Positions 3,261-59,096 of a DNA stretch of 64,000 nt are shown here, in pieces. The stretch comes from Trissonchulus latispiculum (Eukaryota; Nematoda; Enoplea; Enoplida; Ironidae), in contig JASAND010016667.1 in the NCBI GenBank assembly GCA_030248195.1, forward strand, positions 1 to 64,000, in the 5' to 3' direction. How positions within the stretch are numbered: position 1 is the stretch's first letter; each line of letters begins with the position of its first letter. Under the pieces are notes generated by a model that saw nothing but the letters and a program-made list of their open reading frames with translations, had not been told where the DNA came from and ran no database searches. The position numbers and the translations under genes were made by a program.

Positions 3261-3654
3261 ATGCGTATTTGGAGTGACTTTATCTATAGATTCTCAAACG
3301 TTTCCACCTGTCGGACACAAACGAAATCAAGTTATAGTTAACACCTCAAGAATATAGTACGCCATTATATGAACAGCTATAATCTATCGCTAAGCTAAGC
3401 TATCGTATGTTATGTCAGTTAGTCTCCAAGCTTAGTGCAGAAAGTTTCTGGAAAGTGCTGGAGGCAAATTTAAAAGTGGAGCCTGGAAACTAGAGAAGAT
3501 CATACATTTGCATGGGGGGGGTTGGGGTTTATCCTTCCCAGACCAGGAGCTCATCTCCCCAGAATTCGGTTTTTTGCCCCTAAAACCGAAAAAATCGGCG
3601 TTTGGCTGCCGGTTCACCCCCCATCACCAAAACGTTCCCTCCTGCACATGTCAG

Positions 3655-3865
3655 GAGAAGATACTGTATATTTCACTTGTTGTGTATAACCCTGTATACA
3701 CCTTTGCAGCAAAATTCAATTGCGAATCGGAAAAAAATCGAATTTCGCGAAATTCAAAGCTTTTGCGATATTTGAACTCTGCGTGGTCGAAAACATACCC
3801 ATACCAAATTTCAGCTCGATTGGTCAAATTTTAAAAATTTTAGTACTGGGAGGGGTAATCTGGAA
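3655..3865 (+). repeat. Dispersed repeat, copy 2
   Basis: This is a close relative of 2515-2735, with the same GCGATATTTGAACTC and GGTCGAAAACATACCCATAC phrases in the same order. It has no reading frame of interest. Confidence 0.6.
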
Positions 3866-6073: not shown

Positions 6074-7520
6074 GGGGGGGGGGCTACGAATTTCACTAAA
6101 AGTTCGATGTTGGAAAAGCTAGCTAGTCTTTTTCCACATAATAGTATTAGATTTAGTGTAAAATAGTTTATAGTTTGAGTAATTCCATGTAGCGTAGCGT
6201 CCTGTGGAGGCATCAGAAGTTGGCGTTGTCTGTCCAAAGCTGGACATGACACGTACACAAACTTCGCCTCTACCAGACTGCTGTGCGCAAGGTAGGGTCC
6301 CCAAATTTTCAAGAAATATTTCTGACATATAGTACTTTGATATCGTGTAAAATAATCCTTAGATCAATGTACACATTTCTGTGAGATACAATCAAAGTGC
6401 GAAAAATTGGCTGTTGTCGGACTATTCGGGTGAAGGTTAACTAACGTCTAATGAGCTGTGGTGTACCAAATGAACCCAATTTTGCTCCAATTAATACTCT
6501 AAGTATCTGACTTAACTTATGTAGCAATGACGTGATTTCGTTAATCAATGCTTCGCAGTGCAAGATTACATTCTCGATATTGTCGCTGTTATTTGGTGCC
6601 ATTTCGAAGATGCGAGTAAACTACTCCAAAGTACTGCGGCAGAATGGGCTGAAACTGCTCATGACAGGCCTGTGACTGTACCAGATGTGCAGAAAGCTAG
6701 GTCACTAAACCTCGCTTAGATGCTTAGACCTCCAATGCTTAGAAATGCTAAATTGATTTCTCGAAGTATATATGGATGGACATCGCTCCAAAAAGCTCTA
6801 AGACAGTTGTAAGCGCACACTGAGCGAAGGAAGCGTCATATTGAAAAACGGATTTCATATTCGGATTCAGCAGGTCAAATAACCCCTATAAGCACCTTTT
6901 TCGGAAAAATCGGAGACAAAAATTTTTTGACCCCATTTTTACAGCGCTTAGATAGCTTTTTAGGCCTAAAAATTAGGGCTAGTTTTTTAACAAAAAGTTT
7001 GATAGCACACTAACCAGAAAACCAAAGTCCTCGAAACTTAGAGAAAGTTTGCCCCTATTAGACCCTAATATTTGGTAAAAAGCTGAGGTAGGCTAGGGGC
7101 TGTCAATTTTATTAGATCGAAAACGGCGCACGGTCACATCGCAACTTTTTGGCAAATTTCAAAATTAGAGCTGTTATAGCTGAAGAAGAAAGCAACGCTC
7201 GAAAGCCGGAATACTTTTAATACTTAGCACTAGTAACAGTTAACATTTATGGCTGAAACTTTCCGAATAAACATTGCCATATGGCCAATTTTTAGTCATA
7301 AATTCGGGCTAGAAGTAGCGAAATCTAAACATTGGAGGGCACCTTAGACAGTGTCTGAAATTCGCAAATACTGACCTGAACGAAAATACGTACCAAAAAA
7401 TCACCACCTTAATTGAGCATGCTGAAAGTGTAGACAATTCCGAGCTGCGTGCTCATTTTTATTACATTTATATATAGCTTGCCAAATTAAGAGGAGTTAT
7501 CAATTTAACTAAAAGCTGCC

Positions 7521-7760
7521 TAGTGATGTTTCAGGCGCAGGAAGTGAAACTGAAACTAGGTTATAATCTGTGTATACAGGTCACACTGGCAGTCACTGAA
7601 ACTGTAACTCAAACAGGAACTCGGGAGGAGATCTGAAACCGAAACTAAAATGGAAACTAAAATTATTTTTGGCCTGCCGCCTGAAACTAAAACTGAAACT
7701 GAAACTACTCTGAGCAAAGACCTGAAACTCTGACTGAAACAGGTTTCAGTCTTTCGTCAA
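7521..7760 (+). mobile_element. GAAACT-word hAT-like element, left end only
   Basis: It starts with TAGTGATGTTTCAGGCGCAG, the same 8-bp terminal motif as the elements at 49.4, 51.4, 53.4 and 57.0 kb. Irregular GAAACT repeats follow, as in the 53.4-kb element. I found no matching CATCACTA right end, so the copy appears truncated. Confidence 0.5.
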
Positions 7761-8230
7761 GACATGCATATGAAGGTTTTAAGCCGCTATTGTGTTAATG
7801 TTCTGCAATGGGAGAATAAATAATCATCAATGTCAGTAAATGTCAGTAGTTAATAAATGTCACGAATAAATGTAGAGTACTGTAGAGTTTTCACGAGTTC
7901 AGAAAACTCGACAAAACAATCATAGGTACAAACTTCGCTGCGCCCTGAACTTCGTGTGCAAGGTGCGGTACCCAAATTTTACAGAAATAGTCCTCACATA
8001 GTGCTTTGTTAATGTTTACTTTTCTCTAGGATACGATCAAAGTGCGAAACTTGGGCGTGGTAGGTCCATAGATGGAGGTCTTATGAACTGTGATTTACCG
8101 CAAAGGCCCAATTTTTCCAGTTAGTGCCCCAAGAATCTGTCTAAACTTATGTGCAAATTACATGATTTCGTTATTCATTGATTTCGTGCGCTTGATTAAA
8201 ATTTTTTGACGTTTTCAAGTTGAAAGAGCA

Positions 8231-8352
8231 AGCAACGCCAGAGTTGTATGCAGGCCGAAACTGGAACCGCTTCCATCGGCCCGCCTGGGCCATGCGGGTA
8301 GCAAAATTAGGCCCACCACGCCATGCCGCAGCCCGCATACAACTCTGCACTG
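8231..8352. mobile_element. Small palindromic MITE
   Basis: Terminal inverted repeats CAGAGTTGTATGC and GCATACAACTCTG bound a roughly 120-bp GC-rich interior. The flanks match continuous sequence elsewhere (GCAACGCTCGAAAG at 7190 and 58803), which shows an insertion into the host element. A degraded 8-bp target duplication is possible, so it may be hAT-like. Confidence 0.55.
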
Positions 8353-8636
8353 CTCGAAAGACAGGAAATACTTTTAATGTTTAGTACTAGTAATAATTAA
8401 CATTTGTGGCCAAATTTCAGAATTGATCAAATCACAAATCCACGGAATCGAAATTAACATTTTTGAAAAAATAGTGCTTTAATCACGAAAACCTTCCAGA
8501 ATCGATTTGTAGATGACACTAATAGTAACGACCACTGCGGACTATTTTATCTTTATGTGATAGCTAATCATAATCATAATGCAAAAATGTAGCTCTCTGG
8601 AAACATTGGGCACGGCCGTTCCTAGCTCTCTAAATT

Positions 8637-10790
8637 AGATTGTTTACTCATAAGAAATGAGACTTAAGTCCATTTTTATACAGATTACAAACTCCATTCA
8701 TTAAGTCAGCGTGTTTGTCATCGCACATCTTTCCGTCATCATATGTGACCTTTTGGATTTTGCGCTGACAAGGAAATGTCTACTAAACAGCTGTTTATTG
8801 TGTCTGCGCTTCAAAGTAGAAATGAGACCTTTACCCTAACTTCTTTAAGTCTAACGCTTTCTTTCTCAGACATTCTGAAAACGTGGACAGAGGCCAAAAG
8901 TTAGTTGATACTAAACAATGACATTAGTCTATAAGTCAACGTGTAATTTAATATTAAAGAACAAGGGCCCGTCCTATTTGAAAGGATGCTCACGTGGCAA
9001 TAGTAGTAGTAATGGTAGGGAAAGTGAACAGTAAGTAGAAATATAACTATTGTCGTGGCAAAGATAATAAATAATATGATGGCTCACAAACTTTGGGATA
9101 TGTATCGGTTATACCAATTAAAAGAATATCGCAACGTCTTCGGTGATTAGATAGCTGGGTTACTATTTTTACAGTGCAAACATGTCAAACTCAACTACTT
9201 AAGGGGCCGATTCGGGTATCAGCACTTTGGAAGGCACTAGTATATTAAGCATTTCTTTGAGTTTCAACAATAATTTTGCATTTTAAAGCAAAAATTTCTA
9301 GACAAGGTTTGGGTTTCTCAACAGTTTTATGCGAATTGCGCCTACTTTTGGCGCAGATTGTACGCACATTCGACAACACAAAATCAATTCTTAAACATAG
9401 ATTTCTAGCAAAGTGGGAACGCGGAAGAAAAACGACCATATCAGTCTTCAAAAGGCTCATTGTACTAATTTTTTCTGAAATTGTTAAGTAGAAAACATGC
9501 TCGATAGTCAGAGAAAAACGTAAGTATGTAAGCTGTGCGTTGTGACTGACTTTTGGCAAGCTTGGGGTCTATTGCTCCTAAACAAAAGCACAGAAATCCT
9601 TTGAAATGGAGTGATTTGTGATGGACCAATCACGTGAAATTCACTTATTCTGACCACATATTGCTAATAAATTAATTACATCCTGTTCGTGGACAAAATT
9701 ACACCATGCATTTTAACTCCCCGGGCTGGTCAGACGAGTTAAAATATATTTCGTTATCTCTGCTCTTTTGGCGCCAGGAAACACGGCGATATAATTTTGT
9801 AAAATTTCGAAATGTTTTTATACATTCCGACATATTTAGATTTAGGTTTTCATACATGTACAAAACAAACGTTTTAACAATAATTTCAATTTTTTCCGAA
9901 AGTTCGAAACTAGAAATTTACGTATTTACGAACTTTTTGAAAAATCCATGAAAATCACTATTTGAGGTCGAACGACCGAGTGTTACGAAATTCGACTGCA
10001 AATTCGGAATCAGCGAGTAGAATTGTGTACTCTTGGTGTATATAATCGGATCCTACCAATCGGTCGGTTGATAGCATCGAATTCGATTTTTGAAATCAGC
10101 GACATCGATTTACGTTAGGGGCAACTGCTTAGCCAAATCGAAAACAAAACATTTTTCGAACCATAAGGGGGGAACCAAGCATAGTTTCACCGGAAATTTT
10201 GGTCGGGGGAGGGGTAAGCTCTGGAAATGTGGTGGTCGACCCGCGAAATGGGATGGGGGCACTCCCTCGAAATGGGGACCTCAGAAAATCCAAAAAATGG
10301 CCTCGTTTTAGCCGTTTATAAGCGGTTTTAAACGAGTTAAAGTCAAAATTTGAGAAAGTTTTCAAAAAATGGCCATTTTGGGACACCATTTAGCCAACTT
10401 TTTGGCTCCAAAAAAAGCCGGGGGGTTGGGTGGGGGTAGCCGAAGGTTGGAGGAGGTGGAGGGTATGTCGAAAATTCCTGGGGACGGGGCGATGGGGTCG
10501 AAAACTTTGGGGGAGTACAAGGTGAAACTATGAGACCAAAGCGAAAACCCCCTCCCTATCTAAAGAAGTGCCAAAAATACTATTTATCAATCTTAATCGA
10601 TTCTCCTGGTGATGATGTTTCGGTCAGACGGATCGCTTCCAGCTTATGTAGGAATCCCCCACACCCTCCTCCACCTCCAAAAGTAGCTGGTTTAGGAAAC
10701 TCCTCCACCCCTTTCTACCCAAAGACAGTCCCATAGCTAAGTTGGCATAGCTAAATGTTGCTGCAAGCAGATGTTCACTAAATCAGCTAT
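8637..10790. other. Intergenic, no gene recognised
   Basis: Mostly AT-rich. Open frames at 9245-9559 and 9706-9951 have no recognisable domain and look like chance. A GC-richer patch at about 10160-10520 (runs of GGGG and TGGGG) also has no coding evidence. Confidence 0.35.
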
Positions 10791-11192
10791 GAAATATTTC
10801 GAGACATTTTATATTTCGAGACATTTTATATTTCGAGACATTTTATATTTCGAGACATTTTTTATTTCGAGACACTTTATATTTCGAGACTTTTTAATAT
10901 TTTGAGACTTTTTTCTAAAAGTTCTCAAAATATTCTCATTTGTCTCAAAATATTTTCATTTGTCTCGAAATATTTTCATTTGTCTCGAAATATTTTCATT
11001 TGTCTCGAAATACGTTTTTACAAAATCTAGAAAGATTTGTGAAATGTCTCAAAAGATTTTCAAAAAGTCTCGAAAGTTGAAAATCTTTCGAGACAAAATG
11101 TCTCGAAAGTTGAATAATATTTCGAGACAAATCACAACTTTCCGGAAACCCTCTGCACTTGCTGTGGAGTTAAAGCTGACACACCCATAAAA
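10791..11192 (-). repeat. Word-repeat element R (TTTCGAGACATT arrays with conserved end)
   Basis: An array of about 17-18-bp units near TATTTCGAGACATTT (10793-10905) is followed by inverted units of TGTCTCGAAATATTTTCAT (10938-11010). The right end, 11125-11190, is the inverted copy of the left end of element L at 2841-2890. The two elements share their ends but have expanded different words, TCTAGAAA in L and TCGAGACA in R. Confidence 0.55.
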
Positions 11193-11651: not shown

Positions 11652-12465
11652 ATTTTTTTGGCTGAAAATTGCGTGAGTTATTTCATTTTTAGATTTTCAA
11701 AATCCTTTGATCTTTGCCGCTTTTTCGACTTTAACCGGTTATTACTCGCGACTCGGTCAACGGAAAAATTTTTCGATTAGATTTTCAGGACCGCCTAGGC
11801 GTCCGCTTTCATCTGATATATGTGAGATTTCAATATTTGAAAGTTGATTTTTTCAAAAAATACCACATTTGACCCAAAATTTCGACATAGCGAGTCTAGC
11901 AAAAGTGAGTACAAACAACATAATGATAACGTTCAATCTAAGCAGAATCCAACGATATAAAGTTTTTGTGGTTACGACTTATATTGCGTCCGCAATGGAT
12001 TTTTAAACAATTTCCCTTTTTCAGCTGGTTTTTGCTTAGTTTACACTGGTTCAGGCAAATCAAGGCGGCAACATCAAAGGGAGCCAAAAACCAGCTGAAA
12101 AAGGGAAATTGTTTAAAAATTCATTGCGGACGCAATGCAAGTCCTAGCCACAAAAACTTTAAATCGTTGGATTCAGCTTAGATTGGACTTTATGATTGTG
12201 TGATTTTTCTCACTTTTGCTAGACTCGCTATGTCGAAATTTTGGGTCAAAAAGTGGTATTTTTCGAAAAAAATCTACTTTCAAACATTGAAATCTCACAT
12301 ATATCGGGTGAAAGCGGACGCCTAGGCGGTCCTGAAAATCTAATCGAAAAATTTTTCCGTTGACCGAGTCGCGAGTAATAACCGGTCAAAGTCGAAAAAG
12401 CGGCAAAGATCAAAGGATTTTGAAAATCTAAAAAATGGAATGACTCAAGCAAGTTTCAGTCAAAA
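11652..12465. mobile_element. Long foldback (hairpin) element
   Basis: The left arm, about 11652-12034, and the right arm, about 12085-12465, are inverted copies separated by a loop of about 50 bp. Matching blocks include GGACCGCCTAGGCGTCCGCT, CGACATAGCGAGTCTAGCAA, TTTCCCTTTTTCAGCTGG and GACTCGGTCAACGGAAAAAT, each present as its reverse complement in the other arm. Divergence is a few percent. It has no coding capacity. A transcript across it would fold into a hairpin of roughly 380 bp. Confidence 0.85.
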
Positions 12466-13609: not shown

Positions 13610-14176
13610 TTATTTTTTAAAAGCATCACATAATATGCATACATTACTAGCTAGATTACATGCACTAATTTCACTACATAAACCAATTACAAAAAACTTC
13701 CCATTATGAAACAGTCTTATAGTTCCCCCATCTTGTTTCCATAGGATACCACTGTAGATTTCTAGTTCATAGCAGACATCATGCTTCATCCTCAAATAAC
13801 TGTAGAGCGCTGATAGGTCTACATCATACCCAAGGTGATGGGATACAACAACATTTCGGGTTGTTTGATGATTAACAGCTAAACCAAACTTTCTTGCCAT
13901 TACTTGTCCAGCTTGGAGTCCTCCATCTACTGTTTTTGCTCCCATGCACATAAAACTACCAGTCGAGAAAACCAGAAATGTACATGAGTTGATGGTAATT
14001 ACGGCTCCGCTAAATCTCTTCGGATTATATACCACATCAGGCAACTCCTTGAGATTAACTCTTGAACTGAGCTTTCCTTTCTGGACTATATTGACAACTT
14101 TCATATCTGCACTTGCAATGTTGAGATGTAGGAGAGCACTTCCAGAACCGCAGGTTGTCAACAAAACACTTGACAA
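13610..14176 (-). CDS. TATA-binding-protein-like protein
   Basis: Two TBP-type repeats are visible. Repeat 1 has VVNIVQ (27-32), YNPKRFSGAVITI (50-62), LVFSTG (68-73) and MGAKT (78-82). These match the NPKRF, FSSGK and GAK signatures of eukaryotic TBP, and both DNA-intercalating Phe positions (55 and 70) are kept. Repeat 2 is more diverged: CYELEIYSGILWK (135-147) with Tyr141 at the Phe position, and LFHNGKFFVIG (155-165) with Phe156. TBP binds the minor groove of TATA boxes and nucleates transcription. The first 24 residues overlap the protease ORF, and Met25 (codon at 14102-14104) fits the usual TBP core start better. It is the last gene before hammerhead 2. The probable role is to direct transcription of the element's own genes (inference). 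Confidence 0.8.
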   Translation of the reverse strand: MSSVLLTTCGSGSALLHLNIASADMKVVNIVQKGKLSSRVNLKELPDVVYNPKRFSGAVITINSCTFLVFSTGSFMCMGAKTVDGGLQAGQVMARKFGLAVNHQTTRNVVVSHHLGYDVDLSALYSYLRMKHDVCYELEIYSGILWKQDGGTIRLFHNGKFFVIGLCSEISACNLASNVCILCDAFKK

Positions 14177-14570
14177 CTGAATCGTTGTTATCTCCTCTCT
14201 TCCTTAAATAGTCTACGATCCCATCAAAGCTCCATCCCCGCACCCTTTTATGTAAAAAATATATACAGTACTCACCACATACAACTGTATCAAAATCTTG
14301 TAGACAATAGTAATTATATTTATCAATTTTATATTTTTCTTTACATTCTTCGATAGGATCCAATCCATAACTGTCAAAGTACTCCACGTATTGATCAAAG
14401 AACATCGCAATCCAATGTTCTCCGGGAGCTGTGGAAGGATCCGTGTTTAGGACAAAGCAAGCAGGCCTCTTAATTACATCTGGTAGTTTGTCACAAGCGA
14501 AAACGCCCAGAAACCATCGGCAACCCAAAATGTCCCTCTTCAGAGTTTCTGTTATTTCCAAAGTATTCAT
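14055..14570 (-). CDS. Adenain-like maturation protease (C5-type cysteine protease)
   Basis: At 171 residues it is close to adenovirus and Polinton proteases. Catalytic elements are in the expected order: His52 in GEHWIA, Asp66 in YFDSYG, Gln91 in CLQDF and Cys98 in VVCGEYC. Such enzymes process capsid and core precursors during virion assembly. The start codon overlaps the stop of the capsid gene (ATGA, 14567-14570), as in compact viral gene sets. The C-terminal 40 residues are Cys/Lys-rich and overlap the start of the TBP-like ORF in another frame, so the true C-terminus may have been altered. Confidence 0.85.
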   Translation of the reverse strand: MNTLEITETLKRDILGCRWFLGVFACDKLPDVIKRPACFVLNTDPSTAPGEHWIAMFFDQYVEYFDSYGLDPIEECKEKYKIDKYNYYCLQDFDTVVCGEYCIYFLHKRVRGWSFDGIVDYLRKRGDNNDSVVKCFVDNLRFWKCSPTSQHCKCRYESCQYSPERKAQFKS

Positions 14571-15901
14571 GTTGAGTAGTCATAAAATGGGCTCCTGTTG
14601 TGATCAATAGATATAAGATTATCAAATTCACCATATATAATGACTTCCACACCCTGAGCGTGATCCGTGAGTGGTTCCTTCAACTGTATATAGAGTGATA
14701 GGTCACCTTCTTTAATTAATTCCATTGCACTTCCATCCACGCTGTCAGCGGTTAAATCAAAAACAAAGATAGTGTATCCTTTACTGTAGTCTGTATAGGT
14801 GATATCAATTCCCCTGTCAGTCTTTGCCATATTGATTCCTTCGAACAGGTACATATAGGGAATTGTATAGTTAAAGCCTTCCCAGTCCATTTTCATGGGA
14901 TGCTTTGGAACGTACTCATCACCGCACTTCAGAGATAGTTCACTAATCTTGCATGTTTCAAATTTGAATGGGTTTTTTGTGAATGAGCCATTGAACGCTT
15001 CTGAGTCTATCATTGCCATGATCACACGCCTAGGTAACTGTCCAGCAAAAATAGAATTTTCAACCACTGTTTGTGATTTGGGAGCAATATGTCGCGTAAC
15101 CATCTTTATGCGGCGCACTGGATATTTAGCTGTATTGTTGCTATGAAGAACCTTTTCAATAGCTAAGCTGAGAGACTCTTGGGGTTTTACCTTCCAAACA
15201 TACCAGCGTAAATCTTCTACTTTGATTTTATATTCAGTGCCATCACTTATTAAGGCAAACTTGTCAGCATTCCTATGTAGTTCTATTATCAGTTCAGTAT
15301 CGCTCAGCATGTATCTGTCTTGTTTGAAGAGGTCCACGTGTAACGGAGCCAGCAATTCAACTCCATTGTTGGTCATGAAAGGCTTTCCTCTCCATTTCAG
15401 TGAACCTGAGCTCAAGTCTTCAAAATTTGTATCCTTATAAAACATAGCCATCTGTTGGTGGTTAGTTTTTGAAGCCCATCCATAGTTTAGCAGCACTTCC
15501 AGATAGGATTTGTAGGCATATAGTGGTCCACTGTTTTCAATTTCTTTATCACTGAGCTTAACAATTACTCGCTCAAATAAAGTAGAACCAAGTAGGTTGA
15601 TTGGAGCAACAACAGGCTTGCTGGTGTCCACGGTTCCCCCTGTTGCTGTTGGATATGCTAGATCCTTCCCATCCTTGGTTACAATCTTCAGTTTCAAGTA
15701 CAGGTAGTTTTTATTTAAATCCAACATGAATGAATCTTTAGCTATATGTAGTCTATATGGCCCATTGTCAGTTACAGGATTTTGAGGATAGTACTCTGCC
15801 CAGTAGCCCTTCTCTACAGCTACCTGTGTAGGAGGTAGGGAGAATAGGTCCAGTTCACTTTTAAAACCAGGAAAGGATTGTGCATCCAGCTGTTTAGCCA
15901 T
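14567..15901 (-). CDS. Major capsid protein candidate of a Polinton-like element
   Basis: This 444-residue intact ORF resembles the family often annotated in animal genomes as F54H12.2-like, which recurs beside adenain-like proteases and integrases. It is rich in beta-prone segments, without a signal peptide or membrane segment. The C-terminal part (VEVIIYGEFDNLISID) is typical of that family. Size and position (core protein, capsid, protease) match a double jelly-roll hexon-type capsid, but that fold is inferred, not seen. It begins 11 bp after the core-protein stop and overlaps the protease start by 4 bp. No frameshift or stop interrupts it, suggesting recent or still selected coding. Confidence 0.75.
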   Translation of the reverse strand: MAKQLDAQSFPGFKSELDLFSLPPTQVAVEKGYWAEYYPQNPVTDNGPYRLHIAKDSFMLDLNKNYLYLKLKIVTKDGKDLAYPTATGGTVDTSKPVVAPINLLGSTLFERVIVKLSDKEIENSGPLYAYKSYLEVLLNYGWASKTNHQQMAMFYKDTNFEDLSSGSLKWRGKPFMTNNGVELLAPLHVDLFKQDRYMLSDTELIIELHRNADKFALISDGTEYKIKVEDLRWYVWKVKPQESLSLAIEKVLHSNNTAKYPVRRIKMVTRHIAPKSQTVVENSIFAGQLPRRVIMAMIDSEAFNGSFTKNPFKFETCKISELSLKCGDEYVPKHPMKMDWEGFNYTIPYMYLFEGINMAKTDRGIDITYTDYSKGYTIFVFDLTADSVDGSAMELIKEGDLSLYIQLKEPLTDHAQGVEVIIYGEFDNLISIDHNRSPFYDYST

Positions 15902-15912
15902 GACTGAATACG

Positions 15913-16314
15913 TCAGGTTTTATTAACTTTCTTCTCTTTCTTAGCCTTTTTATGTTTTTTTGAGCGCGGTCTAAACCCAATTCCTTCACCTTCCTGTTGC
16001 AGCTCTTCTCCAACAGTTGTCATTACCCTACCAATAGCTTGCCTTCCGCGTTTCTTTAGTGAACTTTTTACATCCTTTCCTTCATTAAGATAGTCTCTTG
16101 CAACCTCACTGCCTGTTCGTAAAGCCTCCTTCCCTACATGAACTCCAACCTTTCGAACTGTCGGCCAGATTGCCCGAAATAGCCCTCTGAATAGGCTACC
16201 GATTCCTTCTCCCCGTTGATAAGGAACTCCAGAATATGTAGGTAGGGCACCTCCTGTTTGAAGTAAGGCGTCTTCCCACGTCTTGATACTTTCTGGATAA
16301 TATATAGTTCTCAT
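15913..16314 (-). CDS. Basic core protein (adenovirus pX/pVI-like region)
   Basis: 133 residues. A Gly-rich start (residues 35-43, RGEGIGSLFRGL) and a segment AIWPTVRKVGVHVGKEALRTG recall the membrane-active or core peptides of adenovirus-like elements. The C-terminus is very basic (RSKKHKKAKKEKKVNK), fit for DNA binding or nuclear import. GEGIGSL and GEGIGF resemble the Gly-type sites cut by adenain proteases (inference). The start overlaps the stop of the penton-like gene (ATGA, 16311-16314). It probably condenses packaged DNA. Confidence 0.65.
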   Translation of the reverse strand: MRTIYYPESIKTWEDALLQTGGALPTYSGVPYQRGEGIGSLFRGLFRAIWPTVRKVGVHVGKEALRTGSEVARDYLNEGKDVKSSLKKRGRQAIGRVMTTVGEELQQEGEGIGFRPRSKKHKKAKKEKKVNKT

Positions 16315-29173: not shown

Positions 29174-30310
29174 TGGTGGGGTCTAAAAGCAGGACCAGGA
29201 CCAGGACCAGGACCAGGACCACTTTTCAGGACCAGGACCAGGACCAAGGGTCTAAAACCAGGACCACCCTCAGGGCCACTTTCAGGACCAGGACCAGGGG
29301 TCTAAAACCAGGACCAGGGGTCTAAAACCAGGACCAGGACCAAGGGTCTAAAACCAGGACCACTTTTCAGGACCACCCTCAGGACCACTCCCCAGGACCA
29401 GGACCAGGGGTGCAAAATCAGGACCACCCTCAGGACCACTCCCAGGACCAGGACCAACGATGTAAATTCAAGACCACCTTCAGGCCCACTTTCAGGACCA
29501 CGAAAGGCCGCTTTTAACATCAGGGACAGGTGTTTAAAAATTCAGAATCAAGCTCAAGATCACTTTTTCAATTGAAGTGGGACTGAAACCTTTCCACCAA
29601 AGTTTATAATTTAAGTTTAGGTTCTTAGTAATTTCTTCTTAAATTTGTTTATTTTTAATATATACTTCCGAATGATGACAAACTACAAATCTATGATGTC
29701 AAAATTTCTTAAAGAACACTGTTGTCTGTGAAGCACTTGCATTTTTATCTATGCTGTCCTGATTCCGGTTTTCAGCGTGGGAAAGTGACCCGTGTAGCTT
29801 TTCTAGTGCGAAACGCCTATATAATATGTGCAAGATTTTGCAACCATGTATGTTGAGAGATATATATATCTGAACAAAATATATAACCACTTGTTCTATG
29901 ACAAACAAAGGCGAGAAATTAAGTGCATATATATCTGCACCGCTCGCACTGACCAACCAATCAATATTAACATCAACATATGAAGGAAACACAATGCACA
30001 ACTAACTGTTTTGTGCCACGGAAAACCAGAAGGTGGTCCTGAATTTACATCCCTGGTCCTGGTCCTGGGAGTGGTCCTGAGGGTGGTCCTGATTTTGCAC
30101 CCCTGGTCCTGGTCCTGGGGAGTGGTCCTGAGGGTGGTCCTGAAAAGTGGTCCTGGTTTTAGACCCTTGGTCCTGGTCCTGGTCCTGGTTTTAGACCCCT
30201 GGTCCTGGTCCTGAAAGTGGTCCTGAGGGTGGTCCTGGTTTTAGACCCTTGGTCCTGGTCCTGGTCCTGAAAAGTGGTCCTGGTCCTGGTCCTGCTTTTA
30301 GACCCCACCA
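29174..30310. mobile_element. AGGACC-word element with long inverted ends
   Basis: The left end TGGTGGGGTCTAAAAGC is followed by about 330 bp of AGGACC/CAGGAC repeats mixed with GGGTCTAAAACC. The right end, 30010-30310, is the inverted equivalent (GGTCCT repeats ending GCTTTTAGACCCCACCA). The roughly 490-bp middle is unrelated AT-rich DNA. CTTCATGC abuts the left end (29166-29173) and recurs 8 bp after the right end (30319-30326), possibly an 8-bp target duplication with a slightly extended right end. Open frames here encode only GPGP- or LVLVL-type repeats and are not genes. Confidence 0.7.
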
Positions 30311-48136: not shown

Positions 48137-49286
48137 CTGTAGATGCGCCCAATCTGCGTCACCTTTTGTCCACGCATAAAGTGTGTTCACTTTGATTAAC
48201 TGTAACTTTTGAAAGATCAAAGCTTATGAAATGAAACTTTACAGAAGTGTCAAGTACATCTACTTCTACATTTCTTTAAAATTTGACTGTTTTAGATAGA
48301 GCATACCGTAAGTTATAGCTGTTTTTTGCCAAAAAAATGCAGTTTTTCGCTGTCAAAGGATTGTTCCCTAAAGTGCGTCGGTCGTGTCTTAAAGTGCGTC
48401 ATTTAAAAACTCCTATGATTTGCATTAAAAAACTGAACTTTAAGACGTTATATCTTCCATTTCCTACAATTTTATGCTACAAAAATTTTTTATATGGTAG
48501 TTGGCTTGTTCATAAACAATATATATCAAAATCAGCAAAATCTGTGATCTTCGAAAAATTTGTTAAAATGCTAGTACTGTGTTATTTCAAGCGAATTTGA
48601 GTTGCAAATTAAGCTTTGACAATTTATAAAATGTAATTTTATGATTTAAAGCCCGAAACAACAACTTTTACTAAAAAAATAAAATGCCATACAAACAGAA
48701 AATTTGGTATCAGATTGCTCAGAATTATTCCGAGGATTGTGTTTTTTCACTTATTTTTGTCTTAGGTTAAGTTATAGAGCCAGTATTTGCATTTATTTGA
48801 AGTAAATTTACACGTAAAAGATACGAACGCACATTAGGGATATTTGCGCAAAAAGTTAATTTAGAGCGACGCACTTTAGGCACTGATCAGTGGTTCCAGC
48901 AAAATAGGAATTTCTCAGTTCTAGTACGGCGACATCAGGAATTGTTTATATTTTTGGAATCAGCAGATTCTAACGAACAATTTGATAGCTGACACTTTAA
49001 AAGTTGTTAGGTATTAAGGTTGTTATGTGCATAAAACTGAATTTGGGACATTGCTTAAACTTTGGCGGACAACGGGTATTTTATTCAAAGTATATTGAAT
49101 TTTGTAGTATTGTGCACGGTCAAAAAATTTTTAGGAAATATTTTTTACACCATTGCATAGAGCTTGAATAGACCTGCTCAGAAATGTAAAAAGTTTAGGA
49201 TATCTTCCATTCTGTAGTGCACCAGATAACTTTAAACGGCTGAGTGACGCACTTTGGGGTATGACGCACATTGGGCGAATCTACTA
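48137..49286 (+). mobile_element. TA-flanked 1.15-kb element, copy 1
   Basis: Ends TAGATGCGCCCAATCTGCGT and ACGCACATTGGGCGAATCTA are inverted repeats. The element is about 90 percent or more similar (visual estimate) to the reverse complement of 55299-56449. It contains several AAAGTGCGTC words in both orientations. The shared short frame starting MQFFAVKGLFPKVRR (48337-48600) is not a recognised protein. TA at the right edge suggests a Tc1/mariner-type target. Confidence 0.75.
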
Positions 49287-49428
49287 TAATCATAGTTGGC
49301 CAATCTTAATTATAGCTGGCCACCCAGCTATGATTAAGTCAATCGGGACAACTAGGTCAGTACAGCACGGCTAGCTATCTGAAATATAGGCCGGGTCGGC
49401 CGGTCGGCTCGATTGGCCGCCTTTACAG

Positions 49429-49858
49429 TAGTGTTGTTGACCGGCCGGGTGGAAAACGGCCAGCCGGCGGCCGGCCGCCGGCCGGCCGGCCGTTGACCGG
49501 CCGGCCAAGAGATGCACTCGGCCGGACGGCCGGCGGGCCGGCCGGCCGGTCGGCCGTTTCAAGCCGGCCAGCCGGCCTTTGAACGGCCAGTAAACGGCCG
49601 GCCGGCCGGCCGCGCTTATACTTCAGCGGTTTATCAAAATTTTCTCAGGAAATCGATTTTAAGTTGTGCTGATACATTTTCATATCTTGATTTCTTATTC
49701 TGGCACTCATGGGTCAGCATTCCGGCCATTTGTAGCCTTTGATTCGTCAGCCGGCCGTTTTTGGCCGGTTGGGCCGTCGAACGGCCGGCCGGCCGGCCGT
49801 TTCTGGCCGGCCGGGCCGTCGGCCGGCCGACGAAAATTTCGGCCGGTCAACAACACTA
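49429..49858. mobile_element. hAT-like word element, GGCC type
   Basis: Terminal repeats TAGTGTTGTTGACCGGCC and GGCCGGTCAACAACACTA, with a perfect 8-bp target duplication CTTTACAG at 49421-49428 and 49859-49866. Next to each end are dense GGCC/GGCCGG repeats (49437-49610 and 49748-49845) around a short AT-rich centre. 430 bp, no coding capacity. A further GGCC cluster lies just outside at 49389-49420. Confidence 0.9.
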
Positions 49859-50303
49859 CTTTACAGACCGGTGACAAAAAATAAATATCACTAGATAATG
49901 ATCGTATTTAGTTATTGTGTGACCCTACCAGTACTGTGTACATAATTCTCTGTGTATATGTGTAGTATACAGTTGAAATATATACAGTATGTAAATTTTA
50001 GTAAAGTCGGGTATTACTGATCATATCTTGTATATATCTTCTGTAAAGTGTTCCATCGTAAAAACTTTGTGGAAGAATCTACTTGAGGCAGATTTTATGT
50101 TCGTTGACAAAAAGATGAAATAAAAATCAGTCGCTTTCACTACACGTCGACACTTCCAGTACTGACGTGCGACATCAGCTCCATTGAAGTCTGAGTTGTG
50201 TTGAACTTAGCCTACAGCACCCAGTAAAAGAGAACCACTCGTGAATGACCGGAGTTGGTAATAAGTAGTTACTAAGGCAATGGGCTTGATGCCAAAATTG
50301 ATG

Positions 50304-53214
50304 TCAAAGTTCACCCTTTTGTTCCTCGTTTTCACAGATGGTCACTTTTCGCCACCGATACCGGTTATTGTCTTCGCCTTTGGGCGTCATCTCAACGCTG
50401 GAAGTGACTGAGCTGTCATTGTAGAGCAAAGGCTTATCCAGTTCATTTCTCCAGTCTGGGTCAATGTAGTGTGTCAGAGCACTCTTGGTGCTGCCATTCT
50501 CTCCCTGATGATTTTTAGGCTTTTTACGATAGGAATAGCATAAAAAGAGGATCACATTTCCGCATAGAACGAGCCATTCTACCAATGTTATGACCGAAAA
50601 GCCGAGCCATAGACCTAAATATAATATTTTTAAGGGTGAAAGCTAAGTGGCTGATGTCTACTTATGGGCCAAAAGTCTACAACACTTTCCTCAAATTTCC
50701 ATTATACGCAAAATTAGTGCTAATGCTGTGCCCATGCTTACCTATCTGGCCGCCGAAGTCTGCCATGAGGTTTACAAACTGAAAAGTAAAAATAATCAAT
50801 TGAATGAATAGGTTAAAAACCAATCGTTTGCTGTCATTCACAAATATTTCTATCTAAGATCCAAGGTAGCAATTGGCTAAAATTAGTTTAAACGTCCAAA
50901 CAAAATGAACTTATATAAAGTTTAGTATTCCTTAAAAGCCACATTTCGCGGACTCACCGCATAAGCTTCCCTTTCAACGACCATATCAAAACTCATCTGT
51001 TCGTAGTATACTTCCACCAGAACTGCGTTTTCTCTAAAACAATTGAATTCTCTACTTAGTTGAGATTGAGAGGATATAAAAATTTCCATGTTTACCACAT
51101 TAGTCTTGAAGTTTAATGTCTAAAACTTTGGTTTTTAGGTTCCACCTTTTAAAATATTACCTGTAATCTTCTATGCAGGTCAAATTTCCTGGTTCACAGT
51201 CGCCGATCTAAATGAAAATGCAACAATCATAATTATGTAACACACTTCCAAGTGCGGAAACTTTTAGCAAGGAATCTTAACGAAACTGAAACTGCAATAC
51301 AAAAAGATACAGAAAATGTGTTTTAAATAGTCTTACAAAGCTAAAACTCAAGTTTTTAGCTTTCTATATAGTCACTCTCGTGATATATACTTTACATTAG
51401 TGATGTGGATCGGATTGGCGGATCGGATCGGATCGGATCGACCGATCCGGGGTCGGATCGGATCGGATCGACAAATTTTCGGATCGGATCGGATCGGATC
51501 GACAAATTTTCGGATCGGATCGACAAGTTTTCGGATCGGATCGGCTTGATTTTTTCCGGATCGCCGATCCGGCAAATGAGGCAAATTTTGAAAATTTGTA
51601 CCAATTTATTACAAAATTGCAAATGTTTTTCGAAGCAAATTTTCAAAATCTTTCTTGAATTTTGTTGACATGTTGACTTTTCTGTTGTTAATGCTTTTGT
51701 TTTATGTTATCTCTCTCTGGATAAATAAATTTTTATATGTATATATAAAAAAAGTCAAATTGAACTGCTCTCTAATATTTATTAATTTTTGGACTGTCTG
51801 TTCCGCTTTTTAAATTCAGTATCGCTGACTACTGAGAGTGACTTATTCTGTTTTCAACTAATAGGAACGTTGTCTGAAATGGCAAGGAAAATTTTTCTCC
51901 CAAGTGCGTTTGCTCCGAAATGGAAAGTCTGCAAAATCCGCCGGACGCACTTTTGTATATGCTATTGTACTACCAGAATTGTGCTCGATCGTTTATTGCG
52001 AACTTATGCCTTAAGAGCATATTTTTAGAATCGTTTTGAACTGGAGATTTAGATCAACCTACATATCGGGATTGAATCATGAAAAATATTTAATATTTGA
52101 TATCAATTATTTAATTTATTAAAAATATTTAATTTTTCCAAACTTTACCACATTCAAAATTTTGAATCCATGATCGAATGGAGCTGTTCCAGGTGCATAT
52201 TTTTGCACTTGCATTTGTTACAAAGGTTGTTCAGCTCGTCAAGACCTTTCGAGTTAAGACCCATGGCTCCATAACTGTTGGAAAACACCTAAATCTGGAA
52301 AAATCTTGTTTTCGTGAATTTGGAAATCGAGTGCTTTTTGGGAAATGATTGTATTATTAAATGTGTCCAGATTGCCAAGAGCATTATATCATGAGCATTA
52401 AAATATTTAAATTCCGGAAATTTTGAAAAACCGAAAATTTTAAAAATTTGGTGCACTTTGTTTGAAAAGCATGTAACACGTGCAAAAATGTGCCGCGGAA
52501 CCAGATTTTTTTGATCACGAAAACTAAATCTTCAATGTCAATCATTTAGCAAACCTAATTTTAGATTTTCCGTAATAAAATCCGGGATTCCGGATTTTCC
52601 CTGATTTTCAATGTCGTCTCCGTTTCCGAACGATACTAGAACATAATACATTACTTTGCTGGATTTCCATTATAAATACGACCAACGTTGAGTTTTTGCT
52701 CTTACACCCTTGCTTTTTCAATTTTATCTTAGTATAATTCTCACATCTCGCCGTCTGTTTTTTGTGTAGTTCTCACTAGATCTTAAACTCCCAAAACAAA
52801 ACAAGTCGTTATTTTTCAAAGGTAACTACACATCATTCTGCAGCTGCAGTTTCTGATACGGACTTTCAGAATTATTCAATAAGATTCAGATGCGAAGTTT
52901 GGTGTTTTGCAAAATAATGGGCAATGGGAAAGTATAGCAATTTAAGTGTCTACAATTCAAAATTAAAATTATAGTCGGATCAGATCGGATCGGTCCGATC
53001 CGTGGCTGGATCGGATCGGATCGGATCGACGGCCATTTGCCGGTTCGGATCGGCAGGTGATTTTGGCTGCCGGTCCGATCCGGTCCACATCACTACTTTA
53101 CATTATAACTCAGAACTGGAAGTTGAATAACTACATAATAAGATTCTGCGACTTACAGCGTAATGTCGAGCTGGCCACCTTGCTGCTGAATAGGTTACTG
53201 CATAGACAAATTGT
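50304..53214 (-). CDS. DEG/ENaC-family sodium channel, 3' exons only
   Basis: Five exons on -: 53157-53214, 51161-51207, 50958-51033, 50742-50778, 50304-50614, all GT-AG with consistent phases. The joined protein shows YAVTYSAARWP, CEPGNLTCIEDYR, VEVYYEQMSFDMVVE, the family-typical FVNLMADFGGQIGLWLGFS, a second transmembrane helix (VITLVEWLVLCGNVILFL) and a charged cytoplasmic tail ending in EEQKGEL. The GxS selectivity-filter position reads GFS. These channels are trimers passing Na+ across the plasma membrane. The N-terminus, TM1 and most of the cysteine-rich extracellular domain are missing. They must lie in exons further upstream on -, which I could not find up to 61 kb. Confidence 0.88.
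51398..53095. mobile_element. hAT-like word element, GGATC type, inside the channel intron
   Basis: Terminal repeats TAGTGATGTGGATCGGAT and ATCCGGTCCACATCACTA, with a perfect target duplication CTTTACAT at 51390-51397 and 53096-53103 (one more T matches beyond it). GGATC/GATCG repeats fill 51410-51570 and 52977-53090. The 1.4-kb centre is AT-rich with no recognised gene. The element occupies most of the intron between 51208 and 53156 of the channel gene. Confidence 0.9.
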
Positions 53215-53299
53215 CTGCAATAATATTTAATAATTAACTATGTATAAAAATTCTTAAATAGCTAGTGCCATAGTTGGAAGTGGGTTGCAATTTCGTGAC

Positions 53300-53370
53300 C
53301 TGCAGGTACCCGCGACCCGCGAACCCCTGAACCGCGACCCGCGACCCACGACCCGCGACCCACTGAGATT
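53300..53370. repeat. CCCGCGA-word cluster
   Basis: ACCCGCGACCCGCGAACCCC and further GACCCGCGACCCACG units lie just left of the GAAACT element. Outer words GAAGTGGGT (53277) and ACCCACTTC (54815-54824) are inverted, so the GAAACT element may have landed in an older CCCGCGA-word element. Confidence 0.4.
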
Positions 53371-53385
53371 TTGTCGACCCACTTG

Positions 53386-54806
53386 TAGTGTTGTTTCAGC
53401 AGCTGAAACTGAAACTGAAACCTAGTTTCAGCTTGTACATGTTTCAGTTTCAGTTGCTGAAACTGAAACTGAAACTGAAACCATGACAGATTTGGAGCTG
53501 AAACTGAAACTGAAACTTAGTTGAAGTGAGAGCTGAAACTGAAACTGAAACTGAAACTGAAATTAAAATAACTTTTGAGCTGAAACTGAAACTGAAACAA
53601 GAACCGTTTTGGAGCTGAAACTGAAACTGAAACAGTTTCAGCTCCACACTAAGACTGAAACTAGTTTCAGCTCTCGCTGAAGCTGAAACTATTTTCAGCT
53701 CTCGCCGAAGCTGAAACTAGTTTCAGCTCTCGCTGAAGCTGAAACTATTTTCAGCTCTCGCTGAAGCTGAAACTATTTTCAGCTCTCGCTGAAGCTGAAA
53801 CTCTGAAGCTGAAACTAATTTCAGCTCTCGCTGAAGCTGAAATAGGTTTCAGCTCTAGCGTATGCATGTTTAGCATAGACGAGTGTTTCAAAAACTGGGT
53901 CCTGTTCCCAGCATGTAAACTTCCAGCAAATATGTACGTTTAACTAGTGCTTTTTACAGAACAGACCAAAATTGTACATAACAGTGACAAGTAATGCTGC
54001 ATGAAAACTTTAGTATCATTGCAATAAAATGCATTAAATGCATTAAAATTAAATGCATTAAAATGTTAAAATACGACTGTATTGCAGGCAATGTTTATTT
54101 GATCTGTTTCCAATTATTTTTTTTCAGATTATTAAATAATCATTTTAAGATTTCCCAACTTAATTAACAACCTTTTTTATAAAATCATTACATAAGGAGA
54201 AGGACAAGGAGCCCAGCACCAACAACTAAAAAGATCCCCAACTTTAAGGTTAATTAAATTGCCTTCTTGCGGGTTCTGGAGGATGACGCTGTCATGCTGA
54301 TTCTGAGGAAGGACCGAGAGGGCAGTGCGAACTCACTCGCTGTGTTTCCACACGTATTAGGCTATATCATTGAATAGCACATCTGGAACCCGTCTCACCA
54401 TCAGTTAATTAATTTGATTAGCATAACATAAGGATAACATAGAGGATAACAAAAGCTGAAACTCATTTTAGTCAGAGCTGTATGTAGCTGAAAACTATAA
54501 AAGACTTGGACTGAAACTGAAAACTAAAAAAACTTGGAGCTGAAACTGAAACTAAAACTGAAACTCATTTTAGTCAGAGCTGAAACTGAAACTGAAACTG
54601 AAACTGAAACTAGAACAAATTTGGAGCTGAAACTGAAACTGAAACTAAGCTAAACTACGAGCTGAAACTGTAACTGAAACTGAAACTGAAACTAGAACAA
54701 ATTTTGAGCTGAAACTGAAACTGAAATCTTTCTGAAAGTGGAGCTGAAACTGAAACTGAAACTGAAACTGAAACTGAAACTAAACAGGACAGCGTAAACA
54801 TCACTA
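53386..54806. mobile_element. hAT-like word element, GAAACT type
   Basis: Ends TAGTGTTGTTTCAGC and GTAAACATCACTA, with a perfect 8-bp target duplication CCCACTTG (53378-53385 and 54807-54814). CTGAAACTGAAACT arrays fill 53399-53870 and 54450-54780 around an AT-rich centre. Part of the left array has a larger 36-bp period (GCTCTCGCTGAAGCTGAAAC). The frames in it (SVSVSV, FQFQ) are repeat artefacts. Confidence 0.9.
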
Positions 54807-54814
54807 CCCACTTG

Positions 54815-55298
54815 ACCCACTTCTTTAATTTGCACATTTTTGCATTTATAAGTACTCCATGGCATGCATCGAGCAAAATTAACGCTTTAAACATGTTCAT
54901 AGTCCAGTTTTAGAACTTTCAAACAAACATTTGGCAAGTTCAAAGCTAGCTTCGTTTTAGCTAGTTCTGAGCAGGCTATATATGCTATCGCAAAAGTGTT
55001 GGGACCAGGATCGTTGAGTAGAATCAGTATTTAGGCAACGTTTTGTAGATAAAGTCTATTTTCTTGTAGCAATTTCAAAAAAGTTTAGTCCATTCTGGTT
55101 TATTTTTTAAGCGACAACATTTCTACAATATGACTTTATATAAAAAATTTTTAGTACCGTTTTTGGAAAAGCAATGTATTACGCATTTTTATAACTGAAA
55201 AAAGATATACAAAATTTTCTTTAACTGAAAATGAATATAGATTACTAATTAATTTCTGAAGGCACAAGACAATGACAATCTGTAAAATGGTAGATATA
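54815..55298. other. Intergenic
   Basis: AT-rich, no gene recognised. Confidence 0.4.
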
Positions 55299-56449
55299 TA
55301 GTAGATTCGCCCAATCTGCGTCATACCCCAAAGTGCGTCACTCAGCCGTTTAAAGTTATCTGGTGCACTACAGAATGGAAGATATTCTAAAGTTTTTACA
55401 TTTCTGAGCAGGTCTATTCAAGGTCTATGCAATGGTGTAAAAAATATTTCCTAAAAGTTTTTTGACCGTGCACAATACTACAAAATTCAATATACTTTGA
55501 ATAAAACACCCGTTGTCCGCCAAAGTTTAAGCAATGTCCCAAATTCAGTTTTATGCACCTAACAACCTTAATACCTAACAACTTTTAAAGTGTCAGCTAT
55601 CAAATTGTTCGTTAGAATCTGCTGATTCTAAAAATATAAACAATTCCTGATTTCACCGTACTAGAACTGAGAAATTCCGATTTTGCTGGAACCACTGATC
55701 AGTCCCTAAAGTGCGTCGCTCTAAATTAACTCTTTGCGCAAATATCCCTAATGTGCGTTCGTATCTTTTACATGTAAATTTGCTTCAAATAAATGCAAAT
55801 ACTGGCTCCATAACTTAACCTAAGACAAAAATAAGTGGAAAAACACTATCCTCGGAATAATTCTGAGCAATCTGATACCAAATTTTCTGTTTTTATGGCA
55901 TTTTATTTTTTTAGTAAAAGTCATTGTTTAGGGCTTTAAATCATAAAATTACATTTTATAAATTGTCAAAGCTTAATTTGCAACTGAAATTCGTTTGAAA
56001 TAACACAGTAGTAGCATTTTAACAAATTTTTCGAAGATCACAGATTTTGTTGATTTTGATATATATTGTTTATGAACAAGCCAACTACCATATAAAAAAT
56101 TTTCGTAGCATAAAATTGTAGGAAATGGAAGATATAACGTCTCAAAGTTTAGTTTTTTAATGCAAATCATAGGAGTTTTTAAATGACGCACTTTAAGACA
56201 CGACCGACGCACTTTAGGGAACAATCCCTTGACAGCGAAAAACTGCACTTTTTTGGCAAAAAAACAGCTATAACTTACGGTGTGCTCTATCTAAAACAGT
56301 CAAATTTTAAAGAAATGTAGAAGTAGATGTACTTGACACTTCTGTAAAGTTTCATTTCATAAGCTTTGATCTTTCAAAAGTTACAGTTAATCAAAGTGAA
56401 CACACTTTATGCGTGGACAAAAGGTGACGCAGATTGGGCGCATCTACTA
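55299..56449 (-). mobile_element. TA-flanked 1.15-kb element, copy 2
   Basis: It is the inverted homologue of 48137-49286. Ends TAGTAGATTCGCCCAATCTG and CAGATTGGGCGCATCTACTA are flanked by TA on both sides (55297-55298 and 56450-56451), as for Tc1/mariner-type insertions. The interior repeats the AAAGTGCGTC word. A short frame homologous to that in copy 1 lies at 55973-56248 on -. No transposase is present. Confidence 0.8.
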
Positions 56450-56849
56450 TAAAATCAACCGGAAACTTTTAGCTATACTGCAAATTATACAGGTAACCGA
56501 AACAATACAAGTACAGCATTCCAATATAATTTACTGTTTTGATCCATTTGTTTGAATAAAAGCAAAATTGGTCACAAAAATTTTTCAATGTAAAAAACTA
56601 TTAAGCAAAATTAACTTTTAGCTATACTGCAGATTATACAAATAACCGAAACAATACAAGCATAGGTTAGTTTTCCATAATGATTACTGTAGTGTTCCAA
56701 TTGTTTGAGTAAAAGCGAAAATTGGTCAGAACAAATTTTCAATATAAATAGTTACGTAGAGACTTGGAATAAAAGAATAAAAGAGCACTTGGAAAACGGC
56801 ACCTTGACTTGGAAAACAACTACAGAGGGGAGGAGGATCAGTAACTTAA

Positions 56850-59096
56850 GGGGGGGGGGGGCTACGAATTTCACTAAAAGTTCGATGTTGGAAAAGCTAG
56901 CTAGTCTTTTGCCATATAATAGTATTAGGTTTAGTGTAAAATAGTTTAAAGTTTGAAAGAATTTTATGCAGCGTAGCGTCCTGTGGATAGTGTTGTCATC
57001 CGGGCCTGTTTCGGGCTCGGGCCCCGGGCCGGGCCTGGCCCGAGCCCGGATCAAAATTTGATCGGAGCGGCCCGGCCCGGGCCCGGCCCGGATTTTTTTC
57101 GGGCCCGGCCCGAAACAGGCCCGGATTTTTTCCCGGGCCGTTTCCGGGCCAAAGGAAAAATTGATATAAATGGACAGAAAAACACCAAATTTTTCGGAGA
57201 ATCCTTGAAACAAGCTTTTTCACTTCAATTGAACTGAAAAGTAGACGTTAGATAATAAATATCAAGTATTATTTAAAAAACATCGTTCTTGGTTTGACAG
57301 TTTTACTCCGTTAGAGCTCGATACCGTTCTCGAATTATACCTAAATCGGGTTCATTGAAATGCTTTCAATGATATGAGATTGGTGAGTGATGCATTGCTT
57401 TATTATGCCTATTCGTTTCTTGAAAAGCCGTTTATAAAAATTCAAAAGACAAACAAAGGAAGTTAATACAGTTCATAATAAAGCGTTATTTTAGATTAAC
57501 AGACATTGCAAAGTTAATGCCGATACATTATTGTATATTATTTTTACATTTATTTCCGATTACTTATGTTTATTATCTGCTAAAAACTACATCAAAAATG
57601 GTTTTTACTAATTTTGACCATTCGGGCCGGTTTCGGGCCCGACTCCGGGCCGACCTCGGGCCTGTTTCGGGCCCGAAATCCGGGCCGGGCCTCGGGCCTG
57701 TTTCGGGCCCAAAATCCGGGCCGGGCTCGGGCCGGGCCTGGCCCGGTCCGGGGCCCGGCCCGGATGTCTAGGAACGGCCCGGCCCGGCCCGGATTTTTCG
57801 CTAACGTGACAACACTACCTGTGGACTGTGGACCCATCAGAAGTTGGTGTTGTCGGTCCAAAGCTCGGCATGACACGTACAGAAACTTTGCCTCGCCCTG
57901 ATCGCTATCGGCAAGGTACGGTACCCAAATTTTCCAGAAATAGTACTAACATATAGCGCTTTGATATCGTGTAAAATAATCCTTAGATCATTGTATACTT
58001 TTCTGCGCGATACAATCAAAATGCGATAAATTGGGTGTTGTAGGTCTGTACGGGTGGAGGTTAACTAACGTCTAATGAGCTGTGGTTTATCAAAGGAGCC
58101 CAACTTTGCTCCGATTAATACTCCAAGTATCTGTCTTAACTTATGTAAAAATGACGTGATTTCGTTAATCCCTGCGTTCGCAGTGCTAGATGACATTATC
58201 GATATTGTCACTGTTATTTGGTGCCATTTCGAAGATGTGAGTCAATTACTCCAAATTACTGTGGCAGTATCGGCTGAAACTTTGCGCATTACAGACCAGT
58301 GAGTGTACCAAGATGTGCCGAAAGCTATGTCACTAAACTTCGCTCCAATGTTTAGAAATGCTAGATTGATTTCTCAAAGTATGGATGGCGTTCGCTCCAA
58401 AAAGCTCCAAGACAGTTGTAAGCGCATACTGAACGAAGGAAGCGTCATATCGAAAAACGGATTTCATATTCTGATTCAGCAGGTCAAATAACCCCTGTAA
58501 GCACCTTTTCGGCAAAATCGGAGACAAAAAAATTTTTGACCCCATTTTTACTGCGCTTAGCTAGCTTTTCAGGCCCAAAAATAAGGGTTATTTCTTAACG
58601 AAAAGTTGGCTAGCACACTAACCAGAAAACTAAAGCCCTTGAAATTCACAGACAGTATGCCCCTATTAGAGCCTAATAACTGGTAAAAAGCTGGGGTAGG
58701 CTAGGCTAGGGGCTGCCAATTTTATTAGATCGAAAACGGCGCACGGTCACCTCGCAACTTTTTGCAAAATTTCAAATTTGAGCTGTTATAACTAAAGAAG
58801 GAAGCAACGCTCGAAAGCCGGAATACTTTTAATATTTAGCACTAGTAACAGTTAACATTTGTGGCAAAAAGTTTCAGAAATGGTCAAACCGTTAATCCAC
58901 CAGAATTCAGAAAAGCTTTTTCAAAAAACCCACTTTTCGCACCAAAATTTCAACTTTGGCGTAGTGCCAGAATCGGTGTGTGTTAGATATAATAATGCCC
59001 ACTACGGACTATTTAACCTTGATATGTTAGCTAATCATATGGCAAAAGGTAGGTCTCTCTGAAGAAGTTGGGCAAAACCGTTCGTAGCCCCCCCCC
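56850..59096 (+). mobile_element. TTAA-flanked non-autonomous DNA element, copy B
   Basis: TTAA at 56846-56849 and 59097-59100 flanks ends built of a G run plus GCTACGAA and its inverse TTCGTAGC plus a C run. The piggyBac-type target is clear. Without the nested hAT-like element (56988-57817) and its duplication, the body is about 1.4 kb and encodes nothing recognisable. It is homologous to 6074-8636. Confidence 0.85.
56988..57817. mobile_element. hAT-like word element, GGGCCC type, nested in a TTAA element
   Basis: Ends TAGTGTTGTCATCCGGGCC and GTGACAACACTA, with a perfect 8-bp target duplication CCTGTGGA at 56980-56987 and 57818-57825. Copy A of the host element has the single uninterrupted CCTGTGGA at 6200-6207, an independent empty site. 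CGGGCC/GGGCCC arrays fill 57000-57140 and 57620-57795 around AT-rich DNA. Frames rich in GPGP are artefacts. Confidence 0.93.

Follow-up and report, generated by a model that had tools for sequence, protein, structure and literature searches.

The window analysed here is the whole stretch of 64,000 nucleotides from contig JASAND010016667.1 of the nematode Trissonchulus latispiculum (assembly GCA_030248195.1). It encodes a trehalase. The concatenated translation of this gene is closest to nematode proteins among the best 120 of 2565 matches, with 58% to Ascaris. The window also holds four elements, here E1 to E4, each flanked by a perfect 8-bp target site duplication (4/4) and bounded by the tip TAGTGWTG. 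The tip is in inverted orientation at all eight ends. A first-pass annotation of this DNA had described four elements with these duplications and this tip, and all four are present where it placed them.

E1: 49429..49858, no strand assigned, 430 bp, tip TAGTGTTG at both ends, word GGCC/CCGGCC
E1 target duplication CTTTACAG: left copy 49421..49428 (+), right copy 49859-49866
E2: 51398..53095, no strand assigned, 1,698 bp, tip TAGTGATG at both ends, word CGGATC
E2 target duplication CTTTACAT: left copy 51390..51397 (+), right copy 53096-53103
E3: 53386..54806, no strand assigned, 1,421 bp, tips TAGTGTTG / TAGTGATG, word CTGAAA(C)
E3 target duplication CCCACTTG: left copy 53378..53385 (+), right copy 54807-54814
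E4: 56988..57817, no strand assigned, 830 bp, tip TAGTGTTG at both ends, word CGGGCC/GGCCCG
E4 target duplication CCTGTGGA: left copy 56980..56987 (+), right copy 57818-57825

The comparison of the 8-bp duplications with chance, proposed at that stage and run here within the window, places them well above it. Random 8-mer pairs taken 400-1700 bp apart in the window were identical in 151/2,000,000 draws, so that matching flanks in four elements out of four are not due to chance. The sequence TAGTGWTG occurs at 9 sites in the window, against 3.68 expected from shuffles, and 8/9 are element ends. We also scanned the window blindly for 8-bp direct repeats with inverted tips, taking 30 Markov resamples as the null. 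It found 55 pairs in all. Four are the elements themselves, 36 fall within word arrays (those of E2, E3 and E4), and the other 15 lie in different parts of the window. The null gave a mean of 3.0 pairs and a maximum of 6.

The perfect inverted repeat of E1 spans 19 bp, and the inverted match of E2 covers the outermost 21 bases only, with 2 mismatches. The GC content of E1 is 63%. Target duplications of Hermes tend to have T as their second base and A as their seventh. E1 and E2 fit this preference; E3 and E4 differ from it.

Inside the tips, short subterminal words are present at both ends in 4/4 elements. Each element has its own word packed into its two ends, as previously annotated. Words make up 47-58% of the sequence in these end regions, eight in all and delimited by eye.

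E1 arrays: about 49429-49620 and 49720-49858, with 36 GGCC
E2 arrays: about 51398-51580 and 52970-53095, with 22 CGGATC and 4 GATCCG
E3 arrays: about 53386-53870 and 54440-54806, with 52 TGAAAC and 9 GTTTCA
E4 arrays: about 56988-57160 and 57618-57817, with 20 CGGGCC and 16 GGCCCG

The words had been taken to be inverted between the two ends of each element. E2 and E3 contradict this, as their arrays run mainly in one direction. On one strand, E3 shows TGAAAC 27 times in its left half and 25 times in its right half, and GTTTCA 9 and 0 times. The corresponding counts in E2 are 16 and 6 for CGGATC, and 2 and 2 for GATCCG. In these two elements the tips are inverted and the arrays are mainly direct at both ends. 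In E1 and E4 the words are self-palindromic and nearly equal to their own reverse complement, so that both orientations look alike. In E1 and E2 the word already starts within the terminal inverted repeat. The left end of E3 carries at bases 8-24 an inverted pair, GTTTCAG-CAG-CTGAAAC, which is absent from its right end. The direct arrays of E3 make its two ends unlike each other.

A common AAATTT-like spacer between the words was considered and dropped, with runs of at least 4 A/T found in 1-9 of 4-15 spacers per array. A common cluster period was dropped as well; the strongest autocorrelation lag varies between arrays, from 19 to 60 bp. Another scan of the window combined a YARNGNTG tip with a word-rich stretch, and its filter removed 5-mers of two letters. 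E1 and E4 could not surface in it for this reason. It returned 11 sites: four ends of E2 and E3, four sites inside E3, and one each in an array at 3028-3238, in the element at 29174-30310 described below, and at 34637. It supports no claim in this analysis.

The statement that the elements share no other sequence holds for long homology. All six pairs gave a best blastn E-value of 0.014 or worse, and the element interiors used as queries found no other element at E 0.1. It fails for the triplet CGG, which recurs at tip positions 14-16 in 5/8 ends. Read inward, CGG occupies these positions at the left and right ends of E1, the left and right ends of E2, and the left end of E4. It is missing from them at the right end of E4 and at both ends of E3. 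Thus, 5/6 ends of E1, E2 and E4 carry it, and equal sharing by ends arose in 0.025-0.08% of random phases. The paired ends of an element do not, however, count as independent observations. Counted by elements (3/3), the sharing arose in 13-14% of random phases. The common position is suggestive.

The triplet is part of 3/4 words (E1, E2 and E4). Five stretches of these elements have CGG+CCG counts above the highest of 500 base shuffles (79 against 41, 25 against 14, 18 against 14, 32 against 21, and 39 against 30). Since the words repeat, this excess amounts in effect to three independent words and not to 193 sites. The two E3 arrays have CGG/CCG counts of 2 and 0, below the shuffle means of 7.7 and 3.7.

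The ninth TAGTGWTG site of the window, absent from the first-pass annotation, belongs to a relic of the E3 type with a single end.

One-ended E3-type relic: 7521..7741, + strand, TAGTGATGTTTCAG then TGAAAC words, 68% identity to the first 214 bases of E3

Its alignment with the left end of E3 scored 161, against at most 109 in 200 block shuffles; with the right end of E3 the score was 13. The 8-mer flanking the relic, AAGCTGCC, is not repeated elsewhere in the window on the + strand. Up to position 9000, the search found no CACTA accompanied by a matching 8-mer. A looser search to 11000 gave a candidate right end at 10773, which was rejected with 2 and 3 mismatches. The relic is decayed or truncated, since its flanking 8-mer has no partner on that strand and no convincing right end was found. 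In this one case tip and word travel together. As the diverged relic keeps both the tip and the word of E3, words are apparently not invented afresh at each jump. Shortly after the relic and shortly after E4 lie copies of a dispersed repeat with 66-68% identity (7930-8176, 57883-58170 and 6257-6553).

None of the window's 51 ORFs that reach 100 aa has a hAT domain, nor has any of nine shorter ORFs of the element region. A Pfam scan of 16/43 ORFs of at least 60 aa overlapping 49429-57817, including all those of at least 100 aa, gave no transposase. E1 to E4 are non-autonomous, with no transposase coding capacity found. They rely on a partner elsewhere, because no hAT domain occurs among the scanned ORFs of the window. 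Rfam gave 0 matches at the gathering threshold over the whole window. Viral contigs were searched with the tip and word patterns, the E1 word being left out, for a matching 8-bp repeat and an inverted tip with up to 3 mismatches within 6 kb downstream in the available sequence. The 25 loci obtained include none with both features. They are read as chance matches.

The hAT-type tip consensus is YA..G-like, and TAGTGWTG fits it. Membership in the hAT superfamily, with repeats inside the tips as first annotated, is supported by sequence features: it fits the 8-bp duplications, the short TAGTGWTG tips and the subterminal words at both ends. The comparisons that follow draw on excerpts of the cited papers. 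These elements had been thought to resemble no described family, which is too strong. Subterminal repeats are a defining and haphazardly placed feature of hAT elements, and the ends of Tgf2 hold 17 and 18 of them (PMC4890040). In these elements the catalytic domain reads the tip and the N-terminal BED finger reads the short inner repeats. Hermes, Tgf2/Tol2 and Kat1 resemble E1 to E4 in having a tip and short subterminal repeats, theirs being 4-6 bp long and read by BED. In those systems the repeats are scattered and the transposase is known, whereas the repeats of E1 to E4 are near-tandem.

Maize Ac/Ds shares with E1 to E4 short common tips, otherwise unrelated filler, a repeated end word and 8-bp duplications. 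Ac requires AAACGG repeats, which are bound cooperatively. Ds1 and Ac have little in common beyond their 11-bp tips and a few AAACGG repeats, and some Ds1 elements are mobile without the repeat (PMC3260210, in the part consulted). Nevertheless, Ac/Ds has one word per family, whereas E1 to E4 present four words and one tip, in near-tandem clusters. A paper on coral MITEs was set aside as a parallel; the elements in the excerpt are piggyBac-like (PMC2872659).

Among proteins that derive from hAT elements and combine a BED with a Hermes domain, binding specificities are diverse, and CGG or CGC is usually part of the motif (PMC8097297, as excerpted). Five hAT proteins were tested there and four gave motifs, all four matching subterminal regions of their own elements. 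In the coelacanth, at least 8 hAT-derived host proteins bind distinct motifs (PMC8097297). The hAT-19 / CGGBP-type proteins thus offer many different motifs, usually with CGG and several of them in one genome, like the words found here. Their proteins and motifs were measured, whereas E1 to E4 are known from DNA alone and E3 is nearly without CGG.

The excerpt on Hermes (PMC10368747) describes a quasi-palindrome in the left end, within bases 11-27, to which two BED domains bind cooperatively. It also reports that activity needs unlike ends. Both features are comparable to E3, with its inverted pair at bases 8-24. About 70% of Hermes activity remains when every putative BED site of the left end except the first ones is mutated. 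The right end has no BED contacts in this account, and making one end asymmetric again over its first 50 bp gives no rescue (PMC10368747). These mutation, right-end and asymmetry results suggest no benefit from many sites.

Among the titles and abstract openings listed for open-licence papers, none pointed to a single hAT tip combined with several different subterminal words inside the same genome. Tandem packing in E1 to E4 exceeds that in the published hAT descriptions consulted, in the parts drawn upon. It is unusual how far the repeats have expanded in tandem and how many different words occur within 8.4 kb.

We consider that E1 to E4 are nonautonomous nematode hAT elements whose words are over-grown subterminal BED docking sites, differing between subfamilies. 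We give this reading a probability of about 70%. Counting against it are the lack of a hAT domain among the scanned ORFs, the near absence of CGG from E3, the 13-14% obtained when CGG sharing is counted by elements, the two target duplications that depart from the Hermes preference, and the Ds1 elements that move without their repeat. The conserved catalytic part of the transposase would recognise the 8-bp tip. The words would be subterminal repeats that serve as docking sites for the N-terminal BED zinc finger of the transposase. Slippage and unequal exchange may have grown these repeats into near-tandem arrays. Each word would represent one hAT subfamily with its own transposase, the BED specificity having drifted mostly around a CGG core. 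The tip would stay fixed while the word changes along with the finger. The same tip with different words is expected for several hAT subfamilies in a genome, because the specificities of BED motifs are diverse. The reason for the expansion is the weakest step, as extra sites have little effect in Hermes; any benefit from many sites is presumptive. For Tetris and Galileo, end repeats were proposed to grow by unequal exchange, with extra sites favouring mobilisation (PMC4079207, excerpt).

Other explanations place the change of word elsewhere. A single nematode hAT transposase family could have switched words with the tip kept fixed, its binding specificity being a freely replaceable module. We regard this as unlikely. 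In one variant the BED finger would tolerate any multimerised CNG-type word; in another, words and fingers would change in step as part of an arms race that limits cross-mobilisation. The first-pass annotation had offered two mechanisms of its own, a transposase needing a minimal tip plus any repetitiveness, and amplification of end-proximal DNA. Neither is supported, as the E3 relic keeps its word and 3/4 words contain CGG. The former, in which one transposase reads no more than the 8-bp tip and some adjoining DNA of any repetitive or palindromic kind, so that the word is free to change, agrees with the common tip, the lack of long shared sequence and the four words within 8.4 kb. The Ds1 elements that move without AAACGG (PMC3260210) and the Hermes ends about 70% active with putative left-end BED sites mutated (PMC10368747), both known from excerpts, point the same way. 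However, the words do not look arbitrary, the relic has not exchanged its word, and in E2 and E3 the words form mainly direct repeats and not palindromic arrays. We find it improbable.

If instead tip-adjacent DNA were amplified during or after each transposition, for example by gap-repair slippage, each new element would grow its own word. The start of the word inside the inverted repeat in E1 and E2 agrees with this, and the arrays are fairly pure, as expected after recent amplification. Against it, the relic, diverged to the 68% level, has the tip, the adjoining bases and the word of E3, and the same word stands at both ends of E2, E3 and E4 despite their long word-free interiors. This makes such amplification very improbable. 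The superfamily itself could also be another one. P-like and Merlin-like superfamilies also make 8-bp duplications, and the ends could be filled with repeats as in foldback transposons. The TU elements of sea urchin are foldback transposons with variable tandem repeats in their ends, and their arrays are inverted. In Tetris and Galileo variable tandem repeats likewise fill the ends, as in E1 to E4, and these repeats may add transposase sites (PMC4079207, in the excerpt). The repeat-filled element with a different tip at 29174-30310 is also in favour of another superfamily. However, foldback arrays are inverted, whereas inverted tandem end repeats are not what E2 and E3 show, their arrays being mainly direct; the words of E1 and E4 read alike on both strands. 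The tip, moreover, agrees with the hAT consensus. Another superfamily is thus quite improbable.

If every word marks the binding of a single BED finger, as the hAT subfamily reading would have it, the genome would in itself list fingers together with their words. Transposases could then be paired with words known from the DNA sequence alone, and the evolution of hAT binding specificity would become open to direct test. The words would also serve as a signature in the DNA by which a non-autonomous element could be assigned to the transposase that moves it. Such elements would further supply an AT-rich genome with short arrays that resemble microsatellites and are often GC-rich.

The window contains other repeats. 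An inverted element of another kind lies at 29174-30310, with the word CAGGACC/GGTCCTG, here truly inverted. Its perfect terminal repeat of 36 bp begins with TGGTGGGGTCTAAAAG. The 9-mer CCTTCATGC abuts its left end and lies 7 bp outside its right end. Word-filled ends are not limited to TAGTG tips, since this element is also word-filled. Two of the four elements (E1 and E3) adjoin another word array. The left tip of E1 is bordered on its outer side by GGCC-rich DNA (49389-49421), and that of E3 by an ACCCGCG array (53308-53361). The latter was rejected as a fifth element, no 8-bp duplication being seen by eye.

Terminal inverted repeats of 53 bp (98%) lie 8.2 kb apart at 2841-11188 and enclose arrays of TTTCGAGACA-like and CTTTCTAGAAACATTTCAAA units. 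No clean target duplication was seen there by eye. Two copies of a repeat of ~1.15 kb, 97-98% identical and in inverted orientation, occupy 48139-49288 and 55297-56447. Each copy has its own short inverted ends by eye, with a Tc1-like look. A long palindrome is found at 11686-12434, its arms of 175 and 122 bp being 95 and 89% complementary.

Finally, an ORF at 13610-14203 (-) has a TATA-binding-protein (TBP) domain (Pfam E 8.4e-22), and its best TBP match in PDB has E 7.8e-10. The neighbouring ORFs at 14055-14579 and 14567-15919 (-) give sub-threshold matches to an adenovirus-type protease (E 0.00065) and a double-jelly-roll capsid domain (E 1.9e-05). These domain matches look as if a Polinton-like element carried its own divergent TBP. 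The capsid ORF beside the TBP ORF has 227 relatives in public proteins.
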